From contig NZ_CP028339.1 in assembly GCF_003030465.1 (NCBI RefSeq), positions 744,001 to 808,000 of the forward strand: a stretch of 64,000 bases of DNA. Reading direction: 5' to 3'. The notes below the pieces were generated by a model. The model did no database searches, was not told the origin of the DNA, and saw only the letters and a program-made list of their open reading frames with translations. Positions 1-15,314 of this stretch are shown in pieces (the stretch's first letter is position 1; each line of letters opens with the position of its first letter). This stretch comes from Thauera aromatica K172 (lineage in GTDB: Bacteria; Pseudomonadota; Gammaproteobacteria; Burkholderiales; Rhodocyclaceae). Made by a program: the position numbers and the translations under genes.

Positions 1-131
1 AGATGCCGAAGCGAACTGGCGGGTGGCGTGGGCGGAACCCACGGCAGCCTGGACACCCTGGCTGCGGGCTGCTGCCGATACATCGGCAATGCAGGAAGGA
101 GAATGGCGCGGCCCGCAGGCTGCGTCGCCGA

Positions 132-1739: not shown

Positions 1740-1800
1740 GTCGGGTCTCCTGTTCGTGTGGCCCTGGGCGGGCCGGGACGTTGATCGGCAGGAGAAAGAC

Positions 1801-1824
1801 GCCGAAGGCCCTGCGGCCTTCGGC
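1801..1824. terminator. Strong GC-rich hairpin, possible terminator
   Basis: GCCGAAGGCC and GGCCTTCGGC pair perfectly (10 bp) around a 4-base loop. No T-run follows on either strand, so termination is only suggested. It lies 62 bases upstream of the methyltransferase start. Confidence 0.4.
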
Positions 1825-2004
1825 TCGGGAGGACAGAACCACCCGTGGGCTGTTGCAGGCCCGGTCGTCGCTAGAACCGTCTGCTCATCAGCAATCACAC
1901 CCGGCCCATGTCGTGGCTGGGGCCGGCATCGTCTGGCGTGTATCCACACACAAACGGAGCCCAGTGTTTCGCCGGCGGGCACCGGCACCGAATACCGCTG
2001 ACCA

Positions 2005-2054
2005 CGAAGGGTCTCCGGGTGGCTCGCGCAGGCAAGCCATCGGGGGACCCTTCG
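2005..2054. repeat. 50-base interrupted inverted repeat
   Basis: Outer arms CGAAGGGTC (2005-2013) and GACCCTTCG (2046-2054) are perfect complements. Inside them GGTGGCT and AGCCATC pair with one G-T type position. The result is an extended two-step stem of about 16 pairs, long enough to be a structured RNA, an operator or a transfer-related site. Confidence 0.5.
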
Positions 2055-2254
2055 CAGCGGGCGGAAAAATGCAGATCAGCAGAACGCGCGGGAAACGGTT
2101 CGCGGAGAAGCTACCTTCAGGTCCCGTGGCCGGGGACGGCCGGGCGGGACGCGCACGCGGACAAGAAGGCGTTGCGCGCTGGGCGTCCCGCAGGGCGTGC
2201 GGAACACGGGCCGCGCCGCCGATGGCGGGCACGGCTCACGGGAAACGGGGTCGT

Positions 2255-4276
2255 TCAGGAGCCTTTGCGGCCGCTGTCACTGGTACGGCGCGGGCGCGAG
2301 GCCCCGCGCTTGGACGTGCCGGATTCGACCGGCAGCGTGCCTTTGCAGTCGGGGTAGCGACTGCACGACCAGAACGGGCCGCTCTTGCCGGTGCGCTGGC
2401 GTGTGGGTGCGCCGCATTGCGGGCAAGTCGGCCCTTGGGGAACCTTGATGGACAGGGATGTGCTGCCGTACTGCGCGATCAACTGGGAAATCCATGCGGC
2501 CTGCTTGCCGATGAACACGTCCAGCGTGAGTTGGCCGGCCTCGATCATGTCCAGCGCCTGTTCCCAGACGGCGGTGGTCCCTGGGTCGGCAATCGCTGCG
2601 GGCACCGCGTCGATCAGGGTGAAGGCAGCTTCCGAGGCGCGGATGGAGCGCCCCTTCTTCACGAGGTAGCCCCGCGTCAGCAGGCCGGTGATGATGTTGG
2701 CGCGCGTGGCTTCGGTGCCGATGCCCGTCGTGTCCTTCAACTTCTGTTTCAGGCGCGGGTCGGTCACGAAACGCGCAACGCCCTTCATCGACTTGACCAG
2801 TTCGCCCTGAGTGTAGGGCTTGGGCGGCATCGTCTTGAGCGCCTTGATCTCGGCCTCGGCCACCTGGCATGCCATGCCTTCGCGCAGCGCGGGCAGAGCC
2901 TGGCTGCGCGCGGTGGCCTCGCCATCCTCGTCGGGCTGCGGCTCGGCCAGCACCAGGTGCCAGCCGCGGGCGACGACTTGCTTTCCCGTGGCCGCAAGCG
3001 TCTGCTGGCCGCAGGAGAAGTTCGCCACGGTGCGATCGAACTCGTGATGTGGCAAAAATTGGGCGAGATAGTGCGCCCGGATCAGTCGGTACACCGCCAG
3101 TTCCTTCTCGCTCATGGCCGAGAGGTTCGCCGGTTCGAGCGTCGGGATGATGCCGTGGTGCGCCGTGACCTTGCCGTCGTTCCAGGCGCGCGAGCGTTGG
3201 GTACGGTCGAGCTGGCCCATGATCGGACGCAGCGACGGATCGGTCTTGAGCAGGCTGTCCAGTACCGCAGGCACCTCGGCGAACATGCTTTCAGGCAGGT
3301 AGCCGGAATCGGAACGCGGGTACGTGGTGGCCTTGTGCGTCTCGTACAGGGCCTGGGCAATCTCCAGGGTTTCCTGCACGTCCAGCCCAAGCTGCTTGGA
3401 GCACACCTCCTGCAAGGTGCCCAGGTCGAACAGCAGCGGCGGACCTTCGCGCACGCGTTCGGTCTCGACCGACACCACCTGGGCACTGCCGGCTGCGCGG
3501 ATCTGCTGCGCGGCCTGCTGAGCGATGGGCTGCTGCACGCATCGGCCGGCGGCGTCGGTGCAGCCTTCGGGCGGAACCCACTGCGCGCTGAAAGCCTGGC
3601 CGCCTGCGGACAGGGACACGTCGATGGCCCAAAACGGCACCGACCTGAAAGCCGCGATCTCGCGGTCGCGGTCCACCACGAGCTTGAGCGTCGGGGTCTG
3701 GACGCGCCCGACCGACAGCACGCCGTCATAGCCTGCCTGCCGCCCCAGCACCGTGAACAGCCGGCTGAGGTTCATGCCGACGAGCCAGTCGGCCCGCGAG
3801 CGCGCCAGTGCCGAGAAGTACATCGGCAGCGTGTCGGACGACGGCCGCAGCTTGCCGAGCGCGGTGCGGATCGAGGCATCGTTGAGCGCCGACAGCCACA
3901 GGCGCTCGATGGGGCCTCGGTAGCCACACAGATCGATGATCTCGCGGGCGATCAGTTCGCCCTCGCGGTCGGCATCGGTGGCGATGACCAGGTGGGTCGT
4001 CTTCGCCAGAAGCGCCTTGACGACCTTGAATTGCGTGGCGGTCTTCGGTTTGACCTCGACCCGCCATTGCTGGGGAATGATGGGCAACTGGTCCAGCGAC
4101 CAGCGCTTGAGCGCCGCGTCATAGACCTCGGGTGCTGCCGCTTCTACGAGATGGCCGATGCACCAGGTGACGGTGACGCCGGAGCCGCTGAGACAGCCTT
4201 CACCGCGCTGCGTCGCGCCGAGAATCCGGCCAATGTCGTTGCCCTGGGAAGGCTTCTCGCACAAGAACAGCCGCAT
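2255..4276 (-). CDS. topB: DNA topoisomerase III (conjugative-element type)
   Basis: This 673-residue type IA topoisomerase starts MRLFLCEKPSQ, the Toprim start typical of TopB. The acidic Toprim motif DADREGELIAREI lies near residue 100, and the active-site Tyr region is about KATTYPRSDSGYL. The C-terminus carries one CxxC-C-C zinc ribbon (CPQCGAP ... CSRYPDC), shorter than in chromosomal topoisomerase I. TopB of PFGI-1/ICEclc-type elements is thought to resolve DNA intermediates during transfer or replication of the excised element. It is transcribed alone. A large palindrome (4482-4504) lies about 205 bases upstream of its start, the same motif that precedes the ssb unit, suggesting co-regulation. 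The Shine-Dalgarno sequence is weak. Confidence 0.96.
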   Translation of the reverse strand: MRLFLCEKPSQGNDIGRILGATQRGEGCLSGSGVTVTWCIGHLVEAAAPEVYDAALKRWSLDQLPIIPQQWRVEVKPKTATQFKVVKALLAKTTHLVIATDADREGELIAREIIDLCGYRGPIERLWLSALNDASIRTALGKLRPSSDTLPMYFSALARSRADWLVGMNLSRLFTVLGRQAGYDGVLSVGRVQTPTLKLVVDRDREIAAFRSVPFWAIDVSLSAGGQAFSAQWVPPEGCTDAAGRCVQQPIAQQAAQQIRAAGSAQVVSVETERVREGPPLLFDLGTLQEVCSKQLGLDVQETLEIAQALYETHKATTYPRSDSGYLPESMFAEVPAVLDSLLKTDPSLRPIMGQLDRTQRSRAWNDGKVTAHHGIIPTLEPANLSAMSEKELAVYRLIRAHYLAQFLPHHEFDRTVANFSCGQQTLAATGKQVVARGWHLVLAEPQPDEDGEATARSQALPALREGMACQVAEAEIKALKTMPPKPYTQGELVKSMKGVARFVTDPRLKQKLKDTTGIGTEATRANIITGLLTRGYLVKKGRSIRASEAAFTLIDAVPAAIADPGTTAVWEQALDMIEAGQLTLDVFIGKQAAWISQLIAQYGSTSLSIKVPQGPTCPQCGAPTRQRTGKSGPFWSCSRYPDCKGTLPVESGTSKRGASRPRRTSDSGRKGS

Positions 4277-4481
4277 GTTCGTCCATCCGATTTCCGTGGT
4301 TCGCTGAGTTGCTGGAAACTAGGATGCCGAGCACCACCAGAGGCAGCAGCAAACAAGCCGCATGCGGCGGCGACCACTTTCACGGGATGGAATGGCTGGG
4401 TCGGGGATGGCGTGCAGCCGGGGATATGCGGGCCGGGAGCCGCGATTTTCGGGAGCGCGTGGAAGCCGGTGGACGTTGATG

Positions 4482-4504
4482 GAGCTATCCCCTGGGGATA
4501 GCTC
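4482..4504. repeat. Palindrome family, copy 1 (upstream of topB)
   Basis: Arms GAGCTATCCCC and GGGGATAGCTC flank one central T, a perfect 11-bp inverted repeat. Its flank on one side (read on the minus strand, GATAGCTCCAT) matches the flank of copies 2-4, so this copy is inverted relative to them. It lies in the 277-base topB-ssb gap. Confidence 0.9.
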
Positions 4505-4510
4505 GCGAGA

Positions 4511-4549
4511 GCATGGAGGGCGGCGAAGACGTGCGACCGCCCTCCATGC
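4511..4549 (-). terminator. Hairpin directly after ssb
   Basis: GCATGGAGGGCGG (4511-4523) and CCGCCCTCCATGC (4537-4549) form a perfect 13-bp stem with a 13-base loop, starting 4 bases past the ssb stop codon. There is no T-run. It probably ends or stabilises the transcript of the ssb unit. Confidence 0.6.
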
Positions 4550-4553
4550 CGGG

Positions 4554-4994
4554 TCACTTCCTGCGCTTGGCTTCTTTCGGCGCAGCCGGCTCCTGCGCGG
4601 GCTGGGGCTTGGGTTCTGCCTCCTGCGGCTTCGGACTGAGGGCCACGGACTCGATGCGGAATGGCAGGATGCCGACGCTGCGCGCGTTGACCTGCCAGGT
4701 CTCACGCGGCTGATCCTCATTGTCCGTCCAGGGTTCGCGCTCCATGCGGCCGACGACCAGCACGCGCATGCCTTTCTGGTACAGGTCTTTCCAGTGCGCG
4801 GCGTCCCGGTGCCAGATTTCCACCGGCGCCCAGAAGCCGCCGCGGTCCTCGAAGTCGCCGCCCTTGGTGGGAACGGGGTTGTCGAAATAGACGTTCAGCC
4901 GCAGCAAGCGCCGCGGTTCGTCGTTGCCGTTGGGGAACTCCCGGTACTCGGGTGGCGAGCCGATGTTGCCTTCGCCGGAAAAATGCGTGCTCAT
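4554..4994 (-). CDS. ssb: Single-stranded DNA-binding protein of the element
   Basis: The product is 146 residues, with an OB-fold core over about residues 20-115 (FWAPVEIWHRDAAHWKDLYQKGMRVLVVGRMEREPW) and a Pro/Glu/Ala-rich tail ending in KRRK. It lacks the acidic DDDIPF-type tip of chromosomal SSB, which in E. coli recruits repair enzymes. A GGAGAT ribosome site precedes the start. It sits last in a unit with the DUF3158 and AcaB-like genes. In ICEclc the ssb gene follows inrR and is expressed only in transfer-competent cells; that parallel is from recalled knowledge, and the local order here fits it. Its likely role is coating the single-stranded transfer DNA. Confidence 0.88.
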   Translation of the reverse strand: MSTHFSGEGNIGSPPEYREFPNGNDEPRRLLRLNVYFDNPVPTKGGDFEDRGGFWAPVEIWHRDAAHWKDLYQKGMRVLVVGRMEREPWTDNEDQPRETWQVNARSVGILPFRIESVALSPKPQEAEPKPQPAQEPAAPKEAKRRK

Positions 4995-5067
4995 GGTGTG
5001 ATCTCCGTGGTGGTTGAAATACCCGTGCCTCGTCGGCGTCGGGCGCGTGCTGGGGTGCCCGACGCGA

Positions 5068-5595
5068 TCACCGATCGCGCATTGCAGAGGGGATGGACGT
5101 GAGCCGGCGCAGGTAGGCGTCTTCCGCCTCGGCCGCCTTGCTGGCGCATTCCTGCGCCTGCCTGCCCAAGGTGTGCAACAGGCTGATCTGCATGTTCAGC
5201 GTGATGCGCTGAAGTTCGATCGCGTGCAGATCGGCCAGCAGGTTGACCGGCGTGCTGGTGCTCGCCATCAGTGCCTGCCACAGGGCCACGCCCATGGCCG
5301 AGCGGTCGTGCCTGCGCCAGCGCAAGAACGTCGTTCCCGCGCCAGTGGTCTGCTGGGCCAGTTCGATGGGCAGCAGGTGGAAGGGATGCCCGATGGCCTG
5401 TTGCAGCACTTGTCGCTGCGCCAGGCCGATCAACTCGTCGCGCATGGCGAAGCACTGGCTGGCCCAGACCTCGAAGTCCCTCTTACCTTTAAAAGGCTTT
5501 AAAAGGCCTTTTAGAGAGGCCGCGTGTTCCAGCCGCATGAAGGCACCCTGTTGCAGGCCCCGGAAGTAGCGGGTGGACTGGTTCAGATCGCTCAT
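5068..5595 (-). CDS. DUF3158 family protein (position of InrR in ICEclc)
   Basis: This is a 175-residue soluble, mostly helical protein without recognisable catalytic motifs. It resembles the DUF3158 family found only in integrating conjugative elements. Its ATG overlaps the stop of the upstream gene (ATGA), indicating translational coupling, and ssb follows 73 bases later. In ICEclc the gene directly before ssb is inrR, a protein needed for full integrase expression; equating the two is an inference from position, not from a comparison I could run. The stretch near 5485-5515 (translated LKGLLKPFKGKRD) has a duplicated CCTTT/AAAGG pattern in DNA. Confidence 0.72.
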   Translation of the reverse strand: MSDLNQSTRYFRGLQQGAFMRLEHAASLKGLLKPFKGKRDFEVWASQCFAMRDELIGLAQRQVLQQAIGHPFHLLPIELAQQTTGAGTTFLRWRRHDRSAMGVALWQALMASTSTPVNLLADLHAIELQRITLNMQISLLHTLGRQAQECASKAAEAEDAYLRRLTSIPSAMRDR

Positions 5596-6392
5596 GCGGA
5601 TTCGTCCTCGCCGACAGCGGGTGCACCTTCGGACAAGTCGGCAGCAGCGGCTTCGTCGCCATTGGCAAGGGAAGCGCCTACGGCTGCGGCAGGCCCCTCA
5701 CCGCGCTGCTGCAGGCCACGACGCACGATGGGCGGTGCAAACTTCGAGCGGCGCATGCCTTCGAGCACGTCCTGTGGCAGTTCGCCGAATTTCTCCAGCG
5801 CCGCCCGCGCTGCGGCATTCTTCGCCGCGAAGTCGTCGCGGGTGCAGCCCGAGTAGCGGTACTGCTGGGCCAGCGAGAACAGGCTGCGCAGCGCGTGCGC
5901 GCCCTCGTTGAGCCAGCGCTCCAAGGTGCTGCGGTCGATGAGCGCGGTGTGGTGGGCGAGGATCAGCTTGCGCGCGATGTCGTCGTAGTCGGCCAGCAGA
6001 TAGACCGCCGCGAAGCCCAGTTGCGCGTTGACGAACAGCGGCAGCTTGACGGGTTGCACATTGAGGTTCTCGCCCAGGCTCAATGCCGCAGGCACGCCCG
6101 CCAGTGCCTGGTCCACCTGTTCGCGCAAGGTCTGCAGCGTGGTCCTGGTCTGGTCGAGCTTGTCCTCGATGCGCAGCATCCACCAGTCTGAATACGGGTC
6201 GTCCTGCTCCGAGCCGCGCTTCATCTTGTTCATCACCGCGATGTAGCCGTTCAGGCCGACGATGCCAGGTCGCCCTTCGGCGGCGGCGCGGCCGTGCCAG
6301 ATGCGGGAAGCGTGGTGGGTGTGCAGCGTCAGCGACATCGCGCTGCGCAGGGAGCCGAGGTTGAGTTGCAATGGTTCGTTGCTGGTTGCCAT
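5592..6392 (-). CDS. TIGR03761/AcaB-like element protein (PFL_4669 family)
   Basis: The protein has 266 residues. The core (residues 1-220) begins LQLNLGSLRSAMSLTLHTHHASRIWHGR and contains YSDWWMLRIEDKL, LPLFVNAQLGFAAVYLLADYD and a conserved YRYSGCTRDDF segment, as in the PFL_4669 family of PFGI-1-type elements. The last 45 residues are Ala/Glu-rich and probably disordered. Recent family naming places it with AcaB-like regulators of conjugative plasmids, so it may be a DNA-binding activator, but no experimental role is visible here. It is the first gene of the unit with DUF3158 and ssb, and three copies of a large palindrome lie 120-390 bases upstream of it. The ribosome site before the ATG is weak. 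Confidence 0.8.
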   Translation of the reverse strand: MATSNEPLQLNLGSLRSAMSLTLHTHHASRIWHGRAAAEGRPGIVGLNGYIAVMNKMKRGSEQDDPYSDWWMLRIEDKLDQTRTTLQTLREQVDQALAGVPAALSLGENLNVQPVKLPLFVNAQLGFAAVYLLADYDDIARKLILAHHTALIDRSTLERWLNEGAHALRSLFSLAQQYRYSGCTRDDFAAKNAAARAALEKFGELPQDVLEGMRRSKFAPPIVRRGLQQRGEGPAAAVGASLANGDEAAAADLSEGAPAVGEDESA

Positions 6393-6510
6393 GGTGAGCG
6401 CTCGCAGGTGGACAGGGAGCCGCCAGCATCCGCATGCAGCGGAAGGCAGTCAGTCAACAAACCGAAATGGGCCAGGCCCCGGTTTCGTCGTGATCGTCGC
6501 GCGCGGGTGA

Positions 6511-6533
6511 GAGCTATCCCCAGGGGATAGCTC
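6511..6533. repeat. Palindrome family, copy 2
   Basis: Perfect 11-bp arms GAGCTATCCCC/GGGGATAGCTC around a central A. It is the copy closest to the AcaB-like gene, about 120 bases upstream of its ATG. Confidence 0.9.
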
Positions 6534-6634
6534 CACCAAACACCATGGAGCGCTGTTCGCCCCGAGCACGACGGACATGCGCTGAGAAAGGCATCGTGCA
6601 GACCCCGCATGAGGGCGTTACACCTTGCATCACG

Positions 6635-6653
6635 GCTATCCCCTGGGGATAGC
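6635..6653. repeat. Palindrome family, copy 3
   Basis: Core arms GCTATCCCC/GGGGATAGC (9 bp) around a central T. The left flank diverges (CACG) while the right flank AGCTCCATGGAGCGCC keeps the family sequence. Confidence 0.88.
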
Positions 6654-6765
6654 TCCATGGAGCGCCAACGAAAGCGATTCGCCGGGCTCAGCGCGGATGG
6701 CCCGGTCTGGGGCGATCATTCGATGCCTGGTCCGCCCGCATCCGAGATCCATCACCGCCGACGAA

Positions 6766-6782
6766 CTATCCCCAGGGGATAG
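6766..6782. repeat. Palindrome family, copy 4
   Basis: Core arms CTATCCCC/GGGGATAG (8 bp) around a central A, with the family flank AGCTCCACTGAACGCCATGG on the right. It lies about 50 bases beyond the end of the replication gene. Confidence 0.88.
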
Positions 6783-6833
6783 CTCCACTGAACGCCATGG
6801 GCGTCTGCTTCATGGTCTGATCGCACGAAGCGG

Positions 6834-8048
6834 TCAACTCTTGCGCAGAAGCTCGCGTAGCCGGTCGATGTGCTGCTTGGCCACCTCGGGCGGAACCACG
6901 TTGCGTGGGGGCTCAGGTGGCGCATCTCGCGTGGCGGCTGGTGGCGGTGCCGACCCAGCCTGCTTGGCCCACGCATTGAACTCGCCACGGATGGCCCGCT
7001 GGATGATGCCGAACAGGTAGCCGGCCGGGTTGCGGATGGCGCTGCCACGACAGCGCTCCGCCCATTCGTCCAGCACGGCTTGTCGCAGCGAGGCATCGAC
7101 CTGCTGCAAGGCCACCATGGCGCCGGCCTGCTGCTCTTCTTTCAAATCGAGGAAGCGCTCGGGCAGGCGAATGCCCTGCATCGCGCGCGCCTGCTCACGC
7201 TCACGCGCGGTAGTACGTACTTCATCAATACGACTACTACGTACTGTACGGTCCTGCTTCGGATTCCGAAGAGAGGCGTCTGACGCGGGTTTCGGCCCTG
7301 CTTCGGAATCCGAAGAGGGGCGTTCGCCATTCCGAAGAAGGCTCGCGGGCCCTTCTTCGGAATCGTGGGAGGCTCCCCCCTGTGGATAACTTTCGGTGGC
7401 TCCGATGCCCTGGCGCGCCAGGCGCTCGGCAAGCACCTGCAGCCGCGACGGCAAGGTGCGGCCGGACAGCAGCGGGTCGTCCGCGATCTCCTTCAAGGTG
7501 TTCAGGCCCACGACCTGCACGGCCTTGGCCGAGTGGCCGAGGGCCTGGCTGACCAACTCCAGGTAGTCGGCGTCCAACTGCATCGCCTCGAACGGGGTCA
7601 GGGGCTCGTCATGCAGCACGTAGAGGTTGCCGAGGATGCGGCCGGTCTTGGGGTCGCGTCGCCGGCGCACCAGGCTCAGCCAGCGCGTCAGGCGCAGCAG
7701 CGTCAGCGCCCGTGCCACGGTTTCATGCGAAGCCGATCCTGCGCAGGGCATCGACGCCAGCCAGGGGCGTAGCTGCTCATAGGTGGGGAACGCGGTCACC
7801 CCGTCCTGGTTGAGCATCAGCCGGAACACCTGCCAGGCATTGCGTTCCAGCGGCGTCAGCCGACGATCGAGGAACAGTCGCCTGGGCACGCTCTCGTGCC
7901 GGTTGCCGCTGAAGAGGAAGCCGTCGCTGGGTGCGGTCGCGGGTGCGCTGGAACGGGGCGCGAGTTCCTTCAGGGCGCCCGCGAACAGATCGGCGAGGGC
8001 GACGGGGCCTTGGCGCGGTGCGCGTGGTGCGGGGTCGTCCACGGCCAT
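6834..8048 (-). CDS. STY4528-family pathogenicity-island replication protein
   Basis: The protein has 404 residues. The N-terminal half (about 40-200) has a winged-helix-like region (RLTPLERNAWQVFRLMLNQDGVTAFPTYEQLRPWL, then SHETVARALTLLRLTRWLSL), matching the STY4528 family of SPI-7/PFGI-type islands. Residues of about 220-285 are a low-complexity Ser/Glu/Pro/Arg linker. The C-terminal part (QVDASLRQAVLDEWAERCRG...GYLFGIIQRAIRGEFNAWA) resembles the end of plasmid initiators. The DNA encoding the linker is packed with inverted repeats and a perfect DnaA box, like an initiator gene carrying its own origin. It is last in the alpA-parA operon, 3 bases after the DUF2857 gene. The replication role is taken from family naming. 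Confidence 0.8.
   Translation of the reverse strand: MAVDDPAPRAPRQGPVALADLFAGALKELAPRSSAPATAPSDGFLFSGNRHESVPRRLFLDRRLTPLERNAWQVFRLMLNQDGVTAFPTYEQLRPWLASMPCAGSASHETVARALTLLRLTRWLSLVRRRRDPKTGRILGNLYVLHDEPLTPFEAMQLDADYLELVSQALGHSAKAVQVVGLNTLKEIADDPLLSGRTLPSRLQVLAERLARQGIGATESYPQGGASHDSEEGPASLLRNGERPSSDSEAGPKPASDASLRNPKQDRTVRSSRIDEVRTTAREREQARAMQGIRLPERFLDLKEEQQAGAMVALQQVDASLRQAVLDEWAERCRGSAIRNPAGYLFGIIQRAIRGEFNAWAKQAGSAPPPAATRDAPPEPPRNVVPPEVAKQHIDRLRELLRKS
7207..7389. repeat. Iteron-like palindrome cluster plus DnaA box inside the rep gene
   Basis: CTTCGGATTCCGAAGAG (7257-7273) and CTTCGGAATCCGAAGAG (7301-7317) are near-identical direct copies 44 bases apart, each with a palindromic core. ATTCCGAAGAAG (7329-7340) and CTTCTTCGGAAT (7352-7363) form a perfect 12-bp inverted repeat of the same motif. 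TGTGGATAA (7381-7389) is a perfect DnaA box (TTATCCACA on the minus strand). A pair of AGTACGTA/TACGTACT motifs (7212-7219, 7238-7245) lies at the other edge and is locally AT-richer. This is the layout of an origin with initiator sites; that it works as one is inferred. Confidence 0.6.
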
Positions 8049-8051
8049 CGC

Positions 8052-8612
8052 TTAACCCAGTCCCTGATCGACCCAGTTCTTGATCGCGGCCCAGACCACC
8101 GACAGCGGCAGTGACATGCCTTCGGCCAGGTCCATTGCCGCATCGAGAATCGAGGTTTCATCCTCCAGATCGACGTTTCTGCTGCTGGTCACGGCCTTCC
8201 ATTGCCGCCACAGTTCCGTATCTTGGGTCTCGTCCAAGACAGGGTGGCGCCCCTTGCGCTTAGGCAGGCCGAGGATCTCGCGCCGCAGCGCAACTTCCTG
8301 GTGGGTGAGGCCGTAAAAGCGGCTCACCATTTCCGTGCTGGCACCCAGGCGCAACATGCGATCGACCGTGGCGATCTCCTTCTCCACGTCCTGCGCCTGT
8401 TTGAGCAGCCGCCGGAGCACTTCGCGATTGACCGTCACCGAACACCACGACACATTGGCGTTGGCCAGCACGCTGATCAGCGCAGGGTGCTTGAGCGCGT
8501 CCAGTTCTTCCTCTCCGAACCCCATCAGCTTGCAGCGCCGCAGTTGCCCATTGCGCAGGTCATACAGCGCCTGGGCAATGACGGCCTGGTTGAGGGGGTG
8601 CGGTGCAGACAT
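8052..8612 (-). CDS. DUF2857 family protein (candidate transfer activator subunit)
   Basis: The product has 186 residues and contains a helix-turn-helix-like segment (RLGASTEMVSRFYGLTHQEVALRREILGLPKRKGR, about 88-122), so it may bind DNA. DUF2857 proteins occur next to the ParB-family gene in PFGI-1/ICEclc-type elements. From memory, the ICEclc transfer activator BisDC is encoded at this position in the same operon and is distantly FlhDC-like; I could not verify that this protein is BisC. A GGGAG ribosome site precedes the start at 8612. It lies 15 bases after the ParB-family gene and 3 bases before the replication gene, so the three are co-transcribed. Confidence 0.72.
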   Translation of the reverse strand: MSAPHPLNQAVIAQALYDLRNGQLRRCKLMGFGEEELDALKHPALISVLANANVSWCSVTVNREVLRRLLKQAQDVEKEIATVDRMLRLGASTEMVSRFYGLTHQEVALRREILGLPKRKGRHPVLDETQDTELWRQWKAVTSSRNVDLEDETSILDAAMDLAEGMSLPLSVVWAAIKNWVDQGLG

Positions 8613-8627
8613 GCTGGACTCCCTCGC

Positions 8628-10274
8628 TCAGGTCCCGGAAGCCGTGGTGCTGGCTTCCAAATCCAGCAGGCGCCGAGCCAGACGCAGCAGCCGAAAGAGC
8701 TTGACCACTGCGGTGTCGCTCAAGCACGTGGCGTCGTGGCTTTGACCCTGGCCGTGCAGCAGTGCCGGCAGATCAAGGGCGAGTTGCCCGTTGTCCAGGC
8801 CAAGCTCGGCGAGGCTCTGGCCCGCAAGGCACGCCAGCAGCGCCAGCACGGCGCGGCCCGCCGGTGATGGGGCCTGGCCACGGCATGCGAAGCCGATGCC
8901 ATCGGGACGGTCATCGATGCACCCGTCCAGGTCCGCTTCGGCCGCGATCTCGCGCGCGAACTGAGCAATGTGAATGCGCAGCCGGTCCGGTGTGTCCAAG
9001 CCGGGATCGATGTACCAGACGTCCGAGATGGGATAGAGGCCACCGGCCTGCACCGGGATGGACTGCAGCACGTTGGCCGAGAAATCGGGCGGGAGCGCAT
9101 CCCCCAACTGGTCGGCGACCATGCGCTGGATGGATTGGAGTCGCTCCGTCGTCGGTGCCGGCGAGACGATGTGCCCCTGCAGCAGATCGCCCGACGCTGC
9201 CACTGGGTTGCCCGAAGACGCCTCGCCAGCCGCGTTGTCCTGGCGTGGGGGCACGGCGCCTGGCCGTCCCACAGGGGATGCCACGGTCGGCGCGGGCGTT
9301 GACGCATCACGTGGCGGCCGCGCCAGGGGCACGGGATCGGGCAAGGTCGGTTGTGCCGGGGACGGCGTCGGGTCGCTGACCAATGCACGGTGACGGCTTT
9401 CCGATTCGGTCAGGTCCAGCGCCAGCACGTCGTAGTCGATGCCCAGCAACTCGGACATCTGGCCGATCAGCTCGTCCTGCACGCGCTGCGGCGAGAACTC
9501 GTCGGCCTGCGTGTCGAACTGCGACAGCACTTCCTGAAAGAACCCCTCGAAGTCCAAAGGAAGCGACTTGGCTTTGGCGTACTGCTCCCAGGTGCGCTCG
9601 CAGGCCTTGCGCATGACCGACAGCCGCTCGACCTGGTGGCGGCCGAGCCCTCCATAGAGCACGGTCGGGATCGCGGGCAGCAGGTAGCGCACCGCATCGG
9701 CCATGCGGCTGATGTGTGACTGCTGCACGGGGTAGCCATCGGCGCCCAGACGGCGGGCCAGTTCGGACTGGCTTAGCGTGGCGCCGCTTTCCGCTTCATA
9801 GAACTCGCGAGCTTTCTCGACGCCCAAGGCGCGTTCGATGAACGTGAGGCCGCCGCGCAACTCGTTCTCCGCAAGGTGGCCGGTCAACGCGACGATTTCG
9901 CCCCGCGCGGGCCAGGGCCGAAACAGGCACGATATGCGGAAGAAGCGCTCGTCCCGCGTTTCCGACCAGAGTTCACGCAGGATCGCCAGGCGCGTGTTGC
10001 CGCCGTTGCGGATGATGTAGTGATCTTCGCCTGGTCGGCGGGTGATGGCCGGCGCCGCATCCAGGCCCCGTTCGCGAATGGATGCCTTGATCTCCTCGTA
10101 GGCGGGATTGCGCTTCTTGCGCGGGTCGTGGTCGTAAGGGCGCAACTGGTCCAGCGTCACGACCATCGGCGTGTCGGCGATCGGATCGCTCAAGGCCGTG
10201 GCCGATGGACCGCTGCGCTCGAACCCGGCGGCAAGCAGCTTGCCGGCCATGTCCTGGGAGGTCATCTCAGCCAT
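8628..10274 (-). CDS. ParB-family protein of PFGI-1-class elements
   Basis: This is a 548-residue protein. Residues of about 40-130 form a ParB/Srx-type domain (VVTLDQLRPYDHDPRKKRNPAYEEIKASIRERGL ... IIRNGGNTRLAILREL), followed by a helix-turn-helix region (GATLSQSELARRLGADGYPVQQSHISRMADAV). The middle (about 300-380) is a Pro/Ala-rich linker, and the C-terminal 160 residues are element-specific. It is much longer than chromosomal ParB (about 290 aa), typical of the PFGI-1 class. The start at 10274 is supported by GAAGGGA upstream; a longer frame exists but lacks this. It overlaps the end of the upstream small gene by 8 bases. It may partition the excised element, or act as the BisD-type half of the transfer activator; the sequence alone does not decide. 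Confidence 0.85.
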   Translation of the reverse strand: MAEMTSQDMAGKLLAAGFERSGPSATALSDPIADTPMVVTLDQLRPYDHDPRKKRNPAYEEIKASIRERGLDAAPAITRRPGEDHYIIRNGGNTRLAILRELWSETRDERFFRISCLFRPWPARGEIVALTGHLAENELRGGLTFIERALGVEKAREFYEAESGATLSQSELARRLGADGYPVQQSHISRMADAVRYLLPAIPTVLYGGLGRHQVERLSVMRKACERTWEQYAKAKSLPLDFEGFFQEVLSQFDTQADEFSPQRVQDELIGQMSELLGIDYDVLALDLTESESRHRALVSDPTPSPAQPTLPDPVPLARPPRDASTPAPTVASPVGRPGAVPPRQDNAAGEASSGNPVAASGDLLQGHIVSPAPTTERLQSIQRMVADQLGDALPPDFSANVLQSIPVQAGGLYPISDVWYIDPGLDTPDRLRIHIAQFAREIAAEADLDGCIDDRPDGIGFACRGQAPSPAGRAVLALLACLAGQSLAELGLDNGQLALDLPALLHGQGQSHDATCLSDTAVVKLFRLLRLARRLLDLEASTTASGT

Positions 10275-10527
10275 GGCCGCATCCCTTCGTGCTGGCGGCC
10301 TGGGCCAAGCGAGCCTCGCGCTCGGCACGGCGGATCTGCGCGCGGGCATTGAGGGCCGCCCGGTGGTCGCTCGCGGTCGAGCTGGTATAGATCGCAGCGC
10401 AACCGGCTTTGGTGAACTTAAGGTGCCCGCTCGGTGTGCGCTTGACGTGCCAACCTTCGCCGATCGCGAATTCGATCAGGGCGCGCAGCCGCTTGTGGCC
10501 GCGCGCCAGTTCATGTGCGTTCGCCAT
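10267..10527 (-). CDS. Small HicA-like protein between parA and the ParB-family gene
   Basis: This 86-residue basic protein begins MANAHELARGHKRLRALIEFAIGEGW. The segment GWHVKRTPSGHLKFTKAG resembles the HicA/dsRBD-like fold, in which a glycine-rich turn is followed by a His. The C-terminal 45 residues are an Arg/Ala-rich helix (HRAALNARAQIRRAEREARLAQ). A GGGGAGG ribosome site supports the start. It overlaps the 3' end of parA by 17 bases and the start of the ParB-family gene by 8, so it is translationally embedded in the operon. ICEclc has a small gene, shi, next to parA that slows growth of transfer-competent cells; this is a positional candidate for the same role, unproven. No HicB-like antitoxin lies beside it. 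Confidence 0.7.
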   Translation of the reverse strand: MANAHELARGHKRLRALIEFAIGEGWHVKRTPSGHLKFTKAGCAAIYTSSTASDHRAALNARAQIRRAEREARLAQAASTKGCGHG

Positions 10528-11386
10528 GGGGCCTCCCCATCTCAGAGGGGCGCTGCGGGCGGCCGGACACGCGGGCCAGTTGCTCCTGCCATTGCGGGAA
10601 CAATTCGCCGGCAAGGGCGCGCATGGTGTCGAGCGCGGCGGGCGCGACTCTGCCCAGCGGCTGTCGGTATTCGACCCGATGCACAGGCAGGCCACGGGTC
10701 GCAGCGCGTGGATAGGCTTCGATGGCCGGCACGTCGGTGTCGAGCACGCGGATGCCGGCGTGGTCCTGGAACAGGTCGCGCAGGGCCTGCTGGATCAGCC
10801 GCGCGTTGGCGGACACGGGGTGGACGCGGTTGATCAGCAGATGCAACGGCGGCGGTTCGATGCCGAGGTGGCGATACGGCGCGATGTCTTCCAGCAACTG
10901 CATGGTGCCGCGTCGCAGTTCGCGGGCTGCGAGGATTTCCGGGGTCACGGGCGACAGCGCAAGATCGGAGGCGAGCACCGCCATCTCCAGCAGCACGCTG
11001 CGCGCCCCCTGGGTGTCGATCAGCAGCAGGTCGTAGAGGGGTGCCAGCACCGGCAACAGGTGGCGCAGCCGCAAGCGCCCGTCTGGCGCATGCAGCAGCA
11101 AGGTGTTCAGTTCGCCCCGGTGATCGTTGGAGACCACCAGGTCCAGCCCCGCGATGATCGTGCGGGACACGAGCCGGCCGAGGTCGCGCTCGTTGAAGGC
11201 CAGCAGCTCGTAGATGCCGCCGGGCGCGCGGTGGGCCAGCTCGTAGTAGGAGGACAGCGTGGGCTGCACGTCGAGGTCGAGCAGCAGCACGCGTAGGCCC
11301 GCATCGGAAACGAGTCCGCCGAGGTTGGCGGCGGTGGTGGTCTTGCCGACGCCGCCCTTGGTCGAGATGATGGATACAACCTGCAT
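10511..11386 (-). CDS. parA: ParA-family partition ATPase
   Basis: The 291-residue protein carries the deviant Walker A motif STKGGVGKTTTAANL (about residues 8-22), the LLLDLDVQPT motif and Walker B LLLIDTQGA (about 118), all typical of ParA/Soj ATPases. These proteins form ATP-dependent patterns on DNA to position replicons. In ICEs the gene may stabilise the excised element or affect the growth state of transferring cells. A GGAGAG ribosome site supports the start. It is the second gene of the alpA operon, 42 bases after alpA. Confidence 0.93.
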   Translation of the reverse strand: MQVVSIISTKGGVGKTTTAANLGGLVSDAGLRVLLLDLDVQPTLSSYYELAHRAPGGIYELLAFNERDLGRLVSRTIIAGLDLVVSNDHRGELNTLLLHAPDGRLRLRHLLPVLAPLYDLLLIDTQGARSVLLEMAVLASDLALSPVTPEILAARELRRGTMQLLEDIAPYRHLGIEPPPLHLLINRVHPVSANARLIQQALRDLFQDHAGIRVLDTDVPAIEAYPRAATRGLPVHRVEYRQPLGRVAPAALDTMRALAGELFPQWQEQLARVSGRPQRPSEMGRPHGERT

Positions 11387-11428
11387 GGCGCTCTCCGTCT
11401 GGGAATGGGAAGTCCAAGGGAGAGCGGA

Positions 11429-11641
11429 TCAGGTCCGGTTGTTGAGGCGTTCGGCGATCCACTGGTCGATTTCGATCGAATCCCAGCCGACGGCGCGAAT
11501 GCCGAGGCGCAGCGCCTGGGGGAACTGGCGCTTCTTCATCAGGCTGTAGATGTGGGCGCGCTTGAAGCCCGACTTGGCTTCGACTTCATCGAGCCGCAAG
11601 ATGCGGCGCTCGTTCGGTGGCAGGACAGGTGCTTGCGACAT
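11429..11641 (-). CDS. alpA: AlpA-family regulator
   Basis: This 70-residue winged-helix protein contains RILRLDEVEAKSGFKRAHIYSLMKKRQFPQALRLGIRAVGWDSIEIDQWI, the classical AlpA/MerR-like excisionase fold in which the first helices bind DNA. The ATG at 11641 has AGGAG eight bases upstream; the GTG at 11650 would overlap that ribosome site, so it is rejected. It heads the alpA-parA-small-ParB-DUF2857-rep operon. AlpA proteins activate integrase or transfer genes, or act as excision factors. In ICEclc the alpA promoter is a switch point of the bistable cascade (recalled knowledge). Two palindromes lie in the 110 bases upstream. Confidence 0.88.
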   Translation of the reverse strand: MSQAPVLPPNERRILRLDEVEAKSGFKRAHIYSLMKKRQFPQALRLGIRAVGWDSIEIDQWIAERLNNRT

Positions 11642-11684
11642 GTCGGTCACTCCTGAACGCTCGGTGGCGTTTGTTGGCGTGACC

Positions 11685-11728
11685 TCTATTCAATAGACAT
11701 CGCTACGAAAAGACATTGCAAATGCAAT
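11685..11728. promoter_or_regulatory. Two small palindromes upstream of alpA
   Basis: TCTATT-c-AATAGA (11685-11697) and ATTGCA-aa-TGCAAT (11715-11728) are perfect inverted repeats in the only AT-rich stretch of this part. They lie 44-87 bases before the alpA ATG, where operator or activator sites would be expected. Confidence 0.5.
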
Positions 11729-11759
11729 CTCCGCGACTGCACATACAAGCTGGAAAACC

Positions 11760-12506
11760 TCATGCGCTTGCGCTACGGACGTACTTCCTGGCGTTGGCGA
11801 ACTTGCCGTTCAAGGTTCGCTCCGTGATGCCCATGGTGCCGCCGTAGTGGGCGACCAATGCCGAGACAAGGGCCTCCTGCGTTTTGAAGCTGGAGTAAGG
11901 CACGCCCGAGGGGGACTGGCCCAGCATCAGCGTCAGCATCCCGCCGATGATGTTGAGATACGTCGTCTCCGCCCGTTCGCTGATCTCGCACTGGCTGGCA
12001 GCCAGCAGCACGGTGGACTGCTTGAGCAGGGTGTCGTGCTGCTCCTGCAGTTCTCGTATCTGGCGCCCGGCTTGCTCCAGCGCTGCCTGAAGGGCCAGCC
12101 GCTCCACCAGGATCGCCTGTCCTGTTTCCATGGTGATGAAAGGATGCGCCATGCGTTCGCCACGGCTGAACAGGAATCCTGGCCGGTGCTCAGGATAGTG
12201 GGTGCGCATCCAACGTTTCAGATCAACATGGCGAACGGTCAAATCCGGCGACTGCAGTAGCTTCGGGTCATTGAGCGTGATCCCGTCCGTGCCGTAGGGC
12301 AGGTCTCCGTTGAGGATGCCGTCATAGATGCGCTCCGAGTACAGCCGGCACTCGTTCCACCGCGGGCAGTTCAGCGACGGTGGCAGGAAGCGCGGTGATG
12401 CGATCGCGGCCAGGATCATCGGCAGGTACCGCAGCAACCCGGCCCATCGGATGGCCGCTTCGATGGGTCGATAGAACACCTTTGATGTTGAAATGTCCTT
12501 GTGCAT
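11760..12506 (-). CDS. Conserved unknown protein at the element end
   Basis: The protein has 248 residues and a strong AGGAG ribosome site before its ATG. I do not recognise the family. Residues of about 10-45 contain a hydrophobic stretch (LLRYLPMILAAIASPRFLPPSL). The middle (about 130-170) is a likely coiled coil (LVERLALQAALEQAGRQIRELQEQHDTLLKQ). The C-terminus reads GGTMGITERTLNGKFANARKYVRSASA, a helical DNA-binding-like end seen in several hypothetical proteins of genomic islands. It is the last minus-strand gene before the junction with the trp genes. No function is assigned. Confidence 0.7.
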   Translation of the reverse strand: MHKDISTSKVFYRPIEAAIRWAGLLRYLPMILAAIASPRFLPPSLNCPRWNECRLYSERIYDGILNGDLPYGTDGITLNDPKLLQSPDLTVRHVDLKRWMRTHYPEHRPGFLFSRGERMAHPFITMETGQAILVERLALQAALEQAGRQIRELQEQHDTLLKQSTVLLAASQCEISERAETTYLNIIGGMLTLMLGQSPSGVPYSSFKTQEALVSALVAHYGGTMGITERTLNGKFANARKYVRSASA

Positions 12507-12882
12507 GTCTTCGTCTCCTTTCGGAAGCGCTACATCACCGGCTCCTTTCTTGCCCTGCCAAGGGCTGTCGTGTCGTTATGGCCTGCAGCGGATGCCTGGG
12601 ACGATGCCCTGAACGTAGGCGGGCGAGATGATTGGCATCCGCCGCAGGTGGCCTCGTCTTGTTCGATGTGCAAGAATTGACCGGTTGCCGGCCCATCGAG
12701 CGATGAGGACGCAAGCTCGATATTGGCGCTCACGGTATCAGCGTCATGCGCTGCGCTATCCCTCGCAAAACCGGTTCGGTATGGTCTGATACGCCGACGG
12801 TTTCACAAAGCCGTGAGCAGCGCCATTTATGCCTGTAGGTCTCGGATCAGCAGAGGAAAGCGGCGGTGTCATATCTGGCCCG

Positions 12883-12907
12883 GATGCTGATATTGCGATA
12901 TAGCATC
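12883..12907. repeat. AT-rich inverted repeat with one bulged base
   Basis: GATGCT-g-ATAT (12883-12893) pairs with ATATAGCATC (12898-12907) across TGCG, giving 10 pairs with a single extra G. It is a candidate operator or end-proximal site of the mobile element. Confidence 0.5.
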
Positions 12908-13211
12908 ACGCACGTGCGGGCCAAGGTGACTGCTTACCTCAGATTCCATGCTCACAAATCCCGGCCGCATCTGACGATCGCAGGGGGGCAATGCGAAGTG
13001 GCAGGCCTACTCGCTCTTTGCTTCTTCGACCTTCGACAGGGCAGCGCTGTCGTCGGAACCGAGGTGGGGGCGATCTGCTGGAGGCTCGGTGCTGTCGGAG
13101 GTGGCTTTGCCAAACATGCTCGTGGTAAAATCCCAAAGGCTTACTTTGGAATTCCGTTCGGGCGCACTCGGGCTGAGTTCTAGCTTCTAAATTCAATACT
13201 TTGGTCTGTCC

Positions 13212-13262
13212 ATGACCCGTACCGCTTCGACCAACATCGCTCTGTGGTGGCGCTTCCAATAG
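13212..13262 (+). CDS. trpL: Tryptophan operon leader peptide
   Basis: The 17-codon frame encodes MTRTASTNIALWWRFQ and stops at 13262. Tandem Trp codons (13245-13250) are followed at once by stem-loop-forming sequence, and trp biosynthesis genes lie downstream on the same strand; this is the classic arrangement of attenuation control. The peptide resembles leaders of other proteobacterial trp operons in having adjacent Trp residues followed by Arg. There is no strong ribosome site. Oddly, no trpE follows: trpG begins 400 bases downstream. The call rests on pattern, not on a database match. Confidence 0.65.
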   Translation: MTRTASTNIALWWRFQ

Positions 13263-13364
13263 GAAGCGGCATGTCGTTGCGGTCTTGACCGCACCTTGCC
13301 GCCGTACCGGCAGGCAAGGTTTCAAGAAGGCTTCCCCGGCACGGCGGCTCCAAGATTTGAGGAG
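13251..13364 (+). promoter_or_regulatory. Attenuator-like stem-loops after the Trp leader peptide
   Basis: Several stems can form: CGCTTCC/GGAAGCG (13251-13257, 13262-13268), GCGGTC/GACCGC (13279-13292), and ACCTTGCC/GGCAAGGT (13293-13300, 13313-13320). A 12-pair stem joins GCCGCCGT-a-CCGG (13298-13310) with CCGG-c-ACGGCGGC (13336-13348). The last two share bases 13298-13300 and exclude each other, as expected of an antiterminator/terminator switch. No T-run follows. Instead CTCC (13348-13351) can pair with the ribosome site GGAG (13361-13364) before the ATG at 13373, so control could act on translation. Confidence 0.55.
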
Positions 13365-13597
13365 ATTGCCCGATGCCCTTAGCTGATCATCCCCATCGTC
13401 GAACTGATGCTCCGCGCCCCGCGACGCTGCGATGGGGGAGTCTGCCCGTTCCGTCTCATCACTCGGCCCAACCATGCTGGCGTAGGCGCTGCTCCAGTGC
13501 GCCGCGTTGGCGCGCTTTGCCACTTCTCTCAAGATCCGTTGCCGCTGTCAGCAAGCACCTGCGCGCACTTCGTCCATCGCAAGCGACTGTCGATGTG

Positions 13598-13664
13598 TGT
13601 AATGAAGTGAGTAATGGAGGGTGCGTGTAATGAGAAACATCAATAAAATCAAGGACTTATAATC
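13598..13664. repeat. GTAATG repeats and AT-rich stretch abutting trpG
   Basis: GTGTGTAATGAA, GTGAGTAATGGA and GCGTGTAATGAG occur in tandem within about 45 bases, followed by an AT-rich run ending ATAAAATCAAGGACTTAT just before the trpG start. Clustered short direct repeats beside an AT-rich core are what integrase arm and core sites look like, so this is a candidate attachment site. The AAGGA here also serves as the trpG ribosome site. Confidence 0.4.
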
Positions 13665-14255
13665 ATGAGACTCCTGATGATCGACAACTACGACAGCTTC
13701 ACCTACAACCTCGTGCAGTACTTCGGCGAACTCGGCGCCCGGGTCAAGGTGTTCCGCAACGACGAAATCACCCTCGGCCAGATCGAGGCGATGAAGCCCG
13801 AGCACCTCGTGATCTCGCCCGGCCCGTGCACTCCGGCCGAAGCCGGCATTTCGGTGGCGGCGATCCAGGCCTTCGCCGGCCGCCTGCCGATCCTCGGCGT
13901 CTGCCTCGGTCACCAGAGCATCGGTGCCGCCTTCGGCGGACGCATCGTCCATGCCAGGAAGCTCATGCACGGCAAGACCTCGGCCGTGCACCACCTCGAC
14001 GTCGGGGTGTTCCGCGGCCTCCCCGACCCGCTCACGTGCACCCGCTACCACTCGCTCGCCATCGAACGGTCCACCCTGCCGGACTGTCTGGAAGTCACCG
14101 CGTGGACCGACGACGGCGAAATCATGGGGATACGCCACAAGACCCTCGACGTCGAGGGGGTGCAGTTCCACCCCGAGTCGATCCTCACCGAATGCGGCCA
14201 CGCGCTGCTGCAGAACTTCCTCGACCGCAGCGCGCCCCTGCCCGCCGCCGCCTGA
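13665..14255 (+). CDS. trpG: Anthranilate synthase component II (glutamine amidotransferase)
   Basis: This 196-residue class I amidotransferase releases ammonia from glutamine for TrpE to aminate chorismate. It has [16 protein letters not shown] at the start, the oxyanion motif [11 protein letters not shown], the nucleophile in [10 protein letters not shown] (Cys about 80) and the catalytic His-Glu in VQFHPES. AAGGA nine bases upstream is the ribosome site. trpD follows after 18 bases. TrpE, its partner, is not encoded next to it as usual; the upstream neighbour is the mobile element. It may also serve as PabA for folate synthesis. Confidence 0.97.
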
Positions 14256-14273: not shown

Positions 14274-15314
14274 ATGACGATGACCGCCCAGCAAGCCCTG
14301 CAACGCACGATCGAGCACCGCGAGATCTTCTTCGACGAGATGCTGTCGCTGATGCGCCAGATCATGGCCGGCGAAATCTCGCCGGTGATGACCGCCGCCA
14401 TCCTCACCGGCCTGCGCGTCAAGAAAGAGACCATCGGCGAGATCACCGCCGCCGCCACGGTGATGCGCGAAATGGCGACCAAGGTCCATGTCGCGCCGCC
14501 GCACGAGCACTTCCTCGACGTCGTCGGCACCGGCGGCGATGGCTCGCACACCTTCAACATCTCCACCGCCACCATCTTCGTTGCCGCCGCCGCCGGTGCA
14601 CGTGTGGCCAAGCACGGCGGGCGCAGCGTGTCGTCCAAGTCCGGCGCCGCCGACGTGCTCGAAGCGCTCGGGGTCAACCTGAACCTGTCGCCCGAGCAGG
14701 TCGCCGCCTGCGTCGAGGAAACCGGCGTCGGCTTCATGTTTGCCCCCAACTACCACAGCGCGATGAAGAACGTCGCCCCGGTGCGGCGCGAAATGGGCGT
14801 GCGCACGATCTTCAACATCCTCGGCCCGCTGACCAACCCGGCGGGGGCGCCGAACACCCTGATGGGAGTGTTCCATCCCGACCTCGTCGGCATCCAGGCG
14901 CGGGTGATGCAGCGTCTGGGCGCCAATCACGTGCTGGTCGTGCATGGCCTGGACGGCATGGACGAACTCAGCCTCGGCGGCGCCACCCTGGTCGGCGAGC
15001 TCAAGGACGGCCAGGTGCACGAGTACGAGATCCATCCCGAAGACTTCGGCCTGCAGATGGCCGGCACCCGCAACCTGCGCGTGGCCGATGCCGAGGCCTC
15101 GCGCGCGATGCTGCTCGGCGCGCTGGAGGACCGCGAAGGGCCGGCGCGCGACATCGTCGCCCTCAATGCCGGTGCGGCGCTGTACACCGCCAACCTGGTC
15201 GACTCGATCGGCGCCGGCATCGAGCGGGCGCGCGAGACCCTCGCCAGCGGCGCGGCGCGGCACAAGCTCGACGAGTTCGTGCGCTTCACCCGCCGCTTCG
15301 GAGCTGCAGCATGA
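14274..15314 (+). CDS. trpD: Anthranilate phosphoribosyltransferase
   Basis: The 346-residue enzyme joins anthranilate to PRPP, the second step of tryptophan synthesis. The PRPP-binding motif [16 protein letters not shown] is near residue 82 and the conserved [21 protein letters not shown] follows, with [20 protein letters not shown] later. The length matches the family. It overlaps trpC by ATGA, so the three trp genes form one operon. Confidence 0.97.

Follow-up and report, generated by a model that had tools for sequence, protein, structure and literature searches.

A predicted tryptophan leader at the right end of an 88-kb integrative and conjugative element inserted in trpG of Thauera aromatica K172

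The trp locus of Thauera aromatica K172 is interrupted by an element of 88,346 bp, of the MobH/PFGI-1 class, inserted in the 5′ end of trpG. Its right end lies in the window analysed here (the whole stretch of 64,000 nucleotides, G000:C1:744001-808000). We consider it likely that the element carries a substitute Trp leader that restores a regulated start for the trpGDC genes it severs. Elements that insert into genes usually avoid harm by rebuilding the coding sequence; in this case regulation has apparently been restored too, and the element appears to carry a metabolic sensor of the same kind as the one that its insertion disconnects. This would be a case of a mobile element maintaining host metabolic control and one way to split a biosynthetic operon without loss, and it points to a way in which mobile elements may take over riboregulators of their hosts for use in their own life cycle. 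A search of the open-access literature returned no report of a Trp leader on a mobile element, nor of an integrative and conjugative element (ICE) in trpG.

The leader has the layout described in the original prediction, namely a 16-residue peptide with tandem Trp codons, stems that compete with each other, a ribosome site plus ATG behind them and trpG as the next gene downstream, all of which were found again at the positions given in Table 1. A short leader ORF with tandem Trp codons is present both in the window and at the 57 loci described below. Behind the peptide the order is competing stems, AGGAG, bridging ORF, trpG and trpD, followed by trpC (named from its translation), which ends at 16111. 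The 290 bases past the ATG at 13373 do not encode TrpE, as had been noted, and hold an 85-codon ORF in which no Pfam match was obtained and no conserved protein was recognised. Restored trpG starts ATG AGA CTC CTG, as opposed to ATG CTG CTG in the trpG stub at the left end and in the empty site. Folding of the leader, proposed as a check on the prediction, gave a better fold than 199 of 200 shuffles (z −2.5), with a less clear result for the shorter piece 13260-13375 (z −1.97, 8 of 200 shuffles equally good). No Rfam family exceeded its gathering threshold at 13100-13720, the best score being 19.9 bits against 41.8, on the opposite strand.

Table 1. Features of the window, in window positions
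Feature	Position	Strand	Basis or remark
Right-hand part of the element	1-13684		Start near G000:C1:669330, upstream of the window; end points from attL/attR
TopB	2255-4276	-	NCBIfam above curated cut-off
SSB	4554-4994	-	NCBIfam above curated cut-off
DUF3158	5068-5595	-	Pfam
PFL_4669	5592-6392	-	NCBIfam above curated cut-off
STY4528	6834-8048	-	NCBIfam above curated cut-off
DUF2857	8052-8612	-	Pfam
PFGI-1 ParB	8628-10349	-	NCBIfam above curated cut-off
ParA-like	10511-11386	-	Below cut-off only
Extended −10-like site TGGTAAAAT, likely leader promoter	13123-13131	+	Motif
Leader peptide MTRTASTNIALWWRFQ and stop, tandem Trp codons	13212-13262	+	ORF reading; 16 codons, ATG at 13212, TGG TGG, TAG at 13260-13262
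Stem 1:2 (13247-13257 with 13262-13272)	13247-13272	+	Folding, alignment
Stem 2:3, antiterminator (GCGGCA 13266-13271 with TGCCGC 13297-13302)	13266-13302	+	Nascent-RNA model
Stem 3:4, terminator-like hairpin, 12 pairs, one bulge, then only TTTC	13293-13320	+	Folding, covariation
Alternative stem 3:5 (13298-13311 with 13336-13348), exclusive with 3:4	13298-13348	+	RNAalifold
Hairpin pairing GGCTCC with the ribosome site	13343-13372	+	Folding
Ribosome site AGGAG, then ATG 13373	13360-13364	+	Window sequence
85-codon bridging ORF, attenuator to trpG	13373-13630	+	Frame conservation
trpG, restored; first codons ATG AGA CTC CTG element-derived	13665-14255	+	Pfam GATase
attR crossover core ATGATCGA inside trpG	13677-13684	+	Left copy in stub, G000:C1:669329-669348
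trpD	14274-15314	+	Named from ORF translation; tblastn of this TrpD in related loci

The original prediction had offered loss or displacement of trpE by the mobile element as one explanation for its absence, and this was not upheld. When trpE was sought elsewhere it was found intact at G000:C1:667759-669231 (L003:5760-7232), on the same strand as the leader and 88 kb upstream, which rules out its loss; the element simply parts trpE from trpG. The anthranilate synthase I N-terminal domain occurs in one copy in the 3.7-Mb genome (G000:C1:667834, + strand). Upstream of trpE lies its own, different leader, (V/M)TLASRLRPAPATPLSVQPRWRGGWRWPLGH followed by a stop codon, of the WRGGWRW type, and further members of the genus likewise have leaders of this kind before trpE. 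The left junction, trpE and the trpE leader are all outside the window and so could not have been seen when the prediction was made. Behind trpE, ATGCTGCTGATGATCGATAACTACGAT TGA represents the first codons of trpG ending at once, followed by a tyrosine integrase gene on the same strand; trpG of the window begins ATGAGACTCCTGATGATCGACAACTACGAC and shares 19 of 20 bases with the stub copy. The empty site is represented by the relative G568 (TrpE 99% identical), in which an intact trpG comes after trpE. Comparison with related trp loci, also proposed with the prediction, covered 12 of 27 genomes with a trpE match: nine of these 12 same-genus loci had trpG directly behind trpE and no leader, two (the window's genome and G583) had the left end of the element, and the leader motif was absent within 1.5 kb of trpE in all 12. 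The remaining locus (L034, G567:C28) has neither trpG nor an element left end behind trpE.

To the left of the window the element encodes a PFGI-1-class MobH relaxase and a conjugation ATPase (MobH, TIGR03760 and TIGR03744, all above cut-offs); TraC of the PFL_4706 type and the TIGR03752, TIGR03755 and TIGR03749 proteins score above curated cut-offs. With PFGI-1 relaxase and conjugation ATPase, a module of PFGI-1 ParB, PFL_4669 and STY4528, a tyrosine integrase at one end, an att repeat at both ends and an empty site in a relative, the element is classed from its gene content as a MobH/PFGI-1-class ICE, for which excision and transfer are predicted. The integrase, which lies right after the left end, has Pfam arm-binding, central and catalytic domains. 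The core ATGATCGA encodes M-I-D and was compared across 50 of the 57 leader loci plus 8 genomes. In 15 left ends the bases to the left of the core vary by host and those to the right are the element's, which places the crossover within ATGATCGA or directly beside it. In all 15 the stub is followed by the integrase, and in 12 trpE lies just upstream; ten of the integrases are 89-100% identical to that of the window and five form a second class at 68-69%. An in-frame integrase search was positive in 15/15 left ends, 0/14 split-locus stretches and 0/57 leader loci. Where both ends were on one contig, element sizes were 66.6 kb (G599, Ottowia), 88 kb (window), 97 kb (G150, G583), 111 kb (G083) and 155 kb (G637). 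At L122 and L123 (G599 and G637) the integrase matches come in two overlapping pieces, and these genes may be broken by a frameshift.

One scan of 84,980 species genomes, using an exact-match pattern with free positions that biases all counts drawn from it, identified 57 loci with the leader family, against a chance expectation of about 0.2 loci calculated for even base composition. The peptide ends in WWRF followed by Q or H and a stop codon in 57/57 loci; three further loci have WWRFR and stop, and one has WWRFQ with TAA. A trpG motif lies 146-495 nt past the Trp codons in 51 of the 57. The other six comprise three that reach the sequence end (L073, one of these, duplicates the record L012, which does have trpG downstream), L078, which has an insertion and trpG at +1588, and two non-trpG sites. 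Hosts include Thauera, Zoogloea, Azoarcus, Achromobacter, Diaphorobacter, Pseudomonas, Stutzerimonas, Alcanivorax and Ectothiorhodospira, and TrpE was found in 56 of the 57 genomes, with some genomes counted twice (the same genome bears two handles in G139/G621, G133/G630 and G583/G633, and also in G593/G709 and G636/G660). A blastn search of 199 family genomes gave eight matches, of which six were genuine leaders and two (G094, G190) were rejected as short and without trpG or WWRF context; among 369 class genomes it was present only in the window's own, five other matches being rejected on the same grounds. The leader had no match in plasmid and phage collections. A covariance model built from 32 of the 48 aligned sequences described below, with 12 candidates scored per genome, placed the leader in at least 6 of 349 genomes of the order, window included, four of them new and before trpG. 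A fifth match, with peptide MNPNIQTHSVAYYYWWRL and a weak E-value of 9.8e-5 (L199:1461-2677), precedes a gene whose score for TIGR00233 (tryptophan--tRNA ligase, trpS) exceeds the cut-off; this relative has a hairpin at the place of 3:4, followed by TTTTTTT.

Alignment of 48 distinct sequences out of 60 (11 duplicates and one cut sequence were left out) revealed several positions that are identical in 48/48 although left free by the search pattern: the third base of the Arg codon, the third base of the Phe codon, the first base of the next codon, the last two bases of the stop codon and two further bases. Among 30 distinct sequences, 3 of the 12 pairs of stem 3:4 show changes in both partners. 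The whole structure beats all 500 shuffles on three of five measures, and on the others its number of pair types was reached by 65/500 shuffles and its number of two-sided pairs by 7/500. The RNAalifold consensus is stem 3:5, not 3:4; it has 12 pairs and no two-sided changes, nearly all changes being one-sided with pairing kept. Little variation is seen in stem 1:2, in part an effect of the search pattern, which includes this stem.

The competition between stems was modelled for different ribosome positions and RNA lengths. For an RNA ending just past region 3, stem 2:3 had a probability above 0.5 in 48/48 sequences with the ribosome at the Trp codons, in 0/48 with the ribosome at the stop codon and in 7/48 without a ribosome. 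Stem 2:3 is only 6 bp and weakens as the RNA grows, so that with longer RNA and a stalled ribosome the count falls to 41, 38 and 33 of 48. In the equilibrium fold of the full leader, 3:4 dominates and the ribosome site is paired in nearly every case; moving the ribosome from the stop to the Trp codons lowered 3:4 by more than 0.2 in 12/48 and opened the ribosome site by more than 0.1 in 3/48, and for the full RNA of the window the equilibrium model gave no change with ribosome position. Opening of the ribosome site at equilibrium was rejected on these figures. Since equilibrium folds hardly switch, any switch must be kinetic. The modelled anatomy is that of a co-transcriptional attenuator whose switch is hardly seen at equilibrium. 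There is no U-tract behind hairpin 3:4, which is followed by TTTC only, and a terminator scanner found no terminator; for lack of a U-tract we do not file it as a classical intrinsic-terminator attenuator and describe it as working like an attenuator.

The strongest competing explanation, which we put at somewhat below an even chance, is that control is only translational, the leader ribosome governing the ribosome site of the bridging ORF and trpG following by coupling, with no transcription termination. The invariant GGCTCC opposite AGGAG (GGCGGCTCC of this hairpin is unchanged in 48 sequences), the missing U-tract and the ending of the bridging ORF at trpG all agree with it, but the modelled ribosome states hardly open the site at equilibrium, and the related leader before trpS does have a U-tract.

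The frame of the bridging ORF is conserved among relatives. In 34 of 38 non-redundant loci (48/52 in all; 52 of 60 loci were used) no stop codon interrupts it between the ATG and a point 45 nt or less from the trpG start, compared with 8 and 13 of 38 for the other two frames and a shuffling expectation of 8.6, the 45-nt limit having been chosen after the distances were known and the shuffles keeping base composition only. The stop codon falls within 15 nt of the trpG start in 27/38, and 34 nt before it in the window. The simplest reading of this arrangement is that the bridging ORF couples translation to trpG. Further upstream, TGGTAAAAT lies 122 nt before the Trp codons of the window, and by manual count 33 of 50 distinct upstream regions have TGnTAnnnT at a distance of 112-131 nt from these codons; 15 of the 50, all of the chromosomal type, have none within 170 nt. 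The shuffle control applies to the stricter GGTAWAAT only (13/50 versus 0.3%) and not to the looser motif. A −35 box was not found and a promoter scanner reported no sigma-70 site. From its motif and position, TGGTAAAAT is likely to be the promoter of the leader RNA.

In the mechanism that we propose, the tyrosine integrase would recombine inside the conserved trpG start, at the core ATGATCGA, and the insertion cuts trpGDC off from the trpE promoter and trpE leader. In exchange the right end supplies a 16-residue leader with two Trp codons, behind a predicted extended −10 promoter, and then an attenuator-like RNA and a bridging ORF headed by a strong ribosome site; it also provides the opening codons of trpG. 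With charged tRNA-Trp scarce, the leader ribosome would stall on the Trp codons, stem 2:3 would form and hairpin 3:4 would be delayed, and transcription and translation would run on into the bridging ORF and trpG. With Trp plentiful the ribosome would reach the stop codon, and hairpin 3:4 together with the ribosome-site hairpin would shut the unit down, a step that, given the missing U-tract, may be Rho-dependent or translational. On this model trpGDC is probably kept under tryptophan control.

A more tentative alternative is that the leader serves the element itself. Once the element has been excised as a circle, its outward promoter and Trp leader would read into the integrase, as a Trp-controlled analogue of Pcirc, and expression of trpGDC would be a by-product or second use. 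Joining the ends places the −10-like site of the leader 728 nt before the start of int, which is codirectional and right after the left end, and PMC2892462 and PMC9286271 list the outward-facing Pcirc of ICEclc as promoter of the integrase transcript. This end geometry, taken with the outward use of Pcirc in ICEclc, makes Trp control of integration possible. However, members of this leader family also precede trpGDC at chromosomal loci that lack an integrase, for which reason its original job was likely trpGDC control, and a bridging ORF that stops at the trpG start agrees with trpG expression. We regard service to the element as rather unlikely, and prefer the reading of a substitute leader for trpGDC. 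While the element is integrated, its integrase gene comes directly after trpE and trpE's own Trp leader. A combined scheme, doubtful at present, would have the element sense Trp at both stages, the leader controlling host trpGDC when integrated and driving the integrase when excised; if true, integration in a new cell would be tied to tryptophan supply.

The view that the leader is a non-functional passenger of the attachment end appears improbable. One element lineage (L078) does have an insertion between leader and trpG, but conservation of the Trp codons and stop, two-sided changes in hairpin 3:4, the steady distance of the promoter-like site and the open bridging frame all speak against it.

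The leader lies inside the element boundaries set by the attL/attR end points, and its distribution follows that of the element. Integrase matches were found in 27 of 297 family genomes. Ten are at least 68% identical, and each of these ten is immediately preceded by a trpG stub, recognised by motif in 7 and by reading in 3. Seven of the ten (G000, G583, G150, G133, G709, G083, G660) have a visible right end, with the leader before trpG in 7/7; of the remaining three, G009 ends with the contig and no trpG was found in G028 and G645. Pairwise comparison of 14 right ends belonging to the window's class (91 pairs) gave identities of 75-100% (median 84) for the stretch from leader to trpG and 61-83% (median 68) for the trpG body; the former exceeded the latter by at least 10 points in 72/91 pairs, and in this comparison the leader stretch is identical in unrelated hosts. 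Occurrence of the same sequence far from trp genes in other elements had been named as refuting the original prediction, and this was seen at 2 of 57 loci: at L050:6388 and L058:6226 (oriented) the element right end runs into non-trpG DNA after ATG(G/A)TCGA. These are probable secondary attachment sites of what looks like the same element type, and they rather confirm that the leader travels with the element. The second branch of the prediction, in which the element carries the leader and places trpGDC under it, is thus upheld for structure and position by the element boundaries, the missing leader at 9 of 12 same-genus loci and identity across hosts. That the leader is the host's own trpG leader and predates the element is scarcely credible: chromosomal trpGDC units with the same leader family exist in other genera, but same-genus empty sites have trpE and trpG contiguous and no leader, a host derivation was rejected on that ground, and the leader is inside the element, identical across unrelated hosts and able to travel to non-trpG sites.

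Split chromosomal loci, in which trpE and leader-trpG are about 1.5-19 kb apart with ordinary genes between them, were found in Pseudomonas, Cupriavidus, Pusillimonas, Bordetella, Alcaligenaceae, Delftia and Ottowia thiooxydans. Neither a trpG stub nor an element-related integrase was found in 19 split-locus genomes, the integrase search covering the locus stretches. Peptide N-termini look more varied in chromosomal leaders than in element leaders. In Candidimonas G617 and in G600, both among the 19, the leader is of the element's own type, and the loci resemble remnants of elements. As related leaders precede trpGDC where trpE and trpG are apart and there is no integrase, we infer that the element probably captured its leader from a chromosomal trpGDC unit.

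The E. coli trp attenuator has tandem Trp codons and alternative 1:2, 2:3 and 3:4 stems, and attenuation has reportedly been described at trpE and trpGDC of P. putida by Olekhnovich and Gussin in 2001. The window leader is like these in its tandem Trp codons, short peptide and alternative stems, and unlike them in that it lacks a U-tract, has a hairpin covering the ribosome site and a bridging ORF, and is carried by a mobile element. In Pseudomonas aeruginosa, R/F pyocins fill the trpE-trpG gap, a gene order similar to that of the window locus in that the gap is filled by mobile-derived DNA. The ICEclc/PAPI-1/PFGI-1 group, which targets tRNA genes, shares with the window element the PFGI-1-class relaxase, TraC PFL_4706, TIGR03752, TIGR03755, TIGR03749, PFGI-1 ParB and a ParA-like gene nearest the right end; the window element differs in its target, trpG coding DNA, and in a right end with a Trp leader. 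SXT supplies new 5′ codons and a promoter to prfC, and we know of no amino-acid leader for it. The SXT/R391 ICEs, which insert at the 5′ end of prfC (PMC4344509), are like the window element in being ICEs in the 5′ end of a housekeeping gene, but belong to another ICE family with another target. An outward promoter, described for ICEclc in PMC2892462 and PMC9286271, is a feature that the window element probably has in common with it.

More distant insertions occur at the same place. The other 18 integrase matches among the 297 family genomes are 41-53% identical; seven of these regions were read, and four have trpE just before the integrase (G714, G004, G196, G022), with trpG following after 2.7 and 6.8 kb in G714 and G022. 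A WWRF leader was absent from 4/4 right ends next to trpG (G033, G714, G156, G022). The trpG start is thus a wider integration hotspot, at which insertion does not require a leader. Integrases about 49% identical were noted in small islands within the trpE-trpG gap, at L187 and L192 (both ends), L190 and L191 (left ends) and L186.

Three further observations concern the window element. A near-perfect 23-bp palindrome, GAGCTATCCCC(T/A)GGGGATAGCTC, is present in four copies (4482-4504, 6511-6533, 6633-6655 and 6763-6785) among conserved element genes; these could be ParB or regulator sites. An Rfam radC RNA match (54 bits) lies at 1-104 on the − strand, truncated by the edge of the window. Outside the window, the element encodes GajA and GajB of the Gabija anti-phage system (L006:4842-8362, equal to G000:C1:726841-730361), with PADLOC E-values of 4.5e-268 and 1e-230, respectively.
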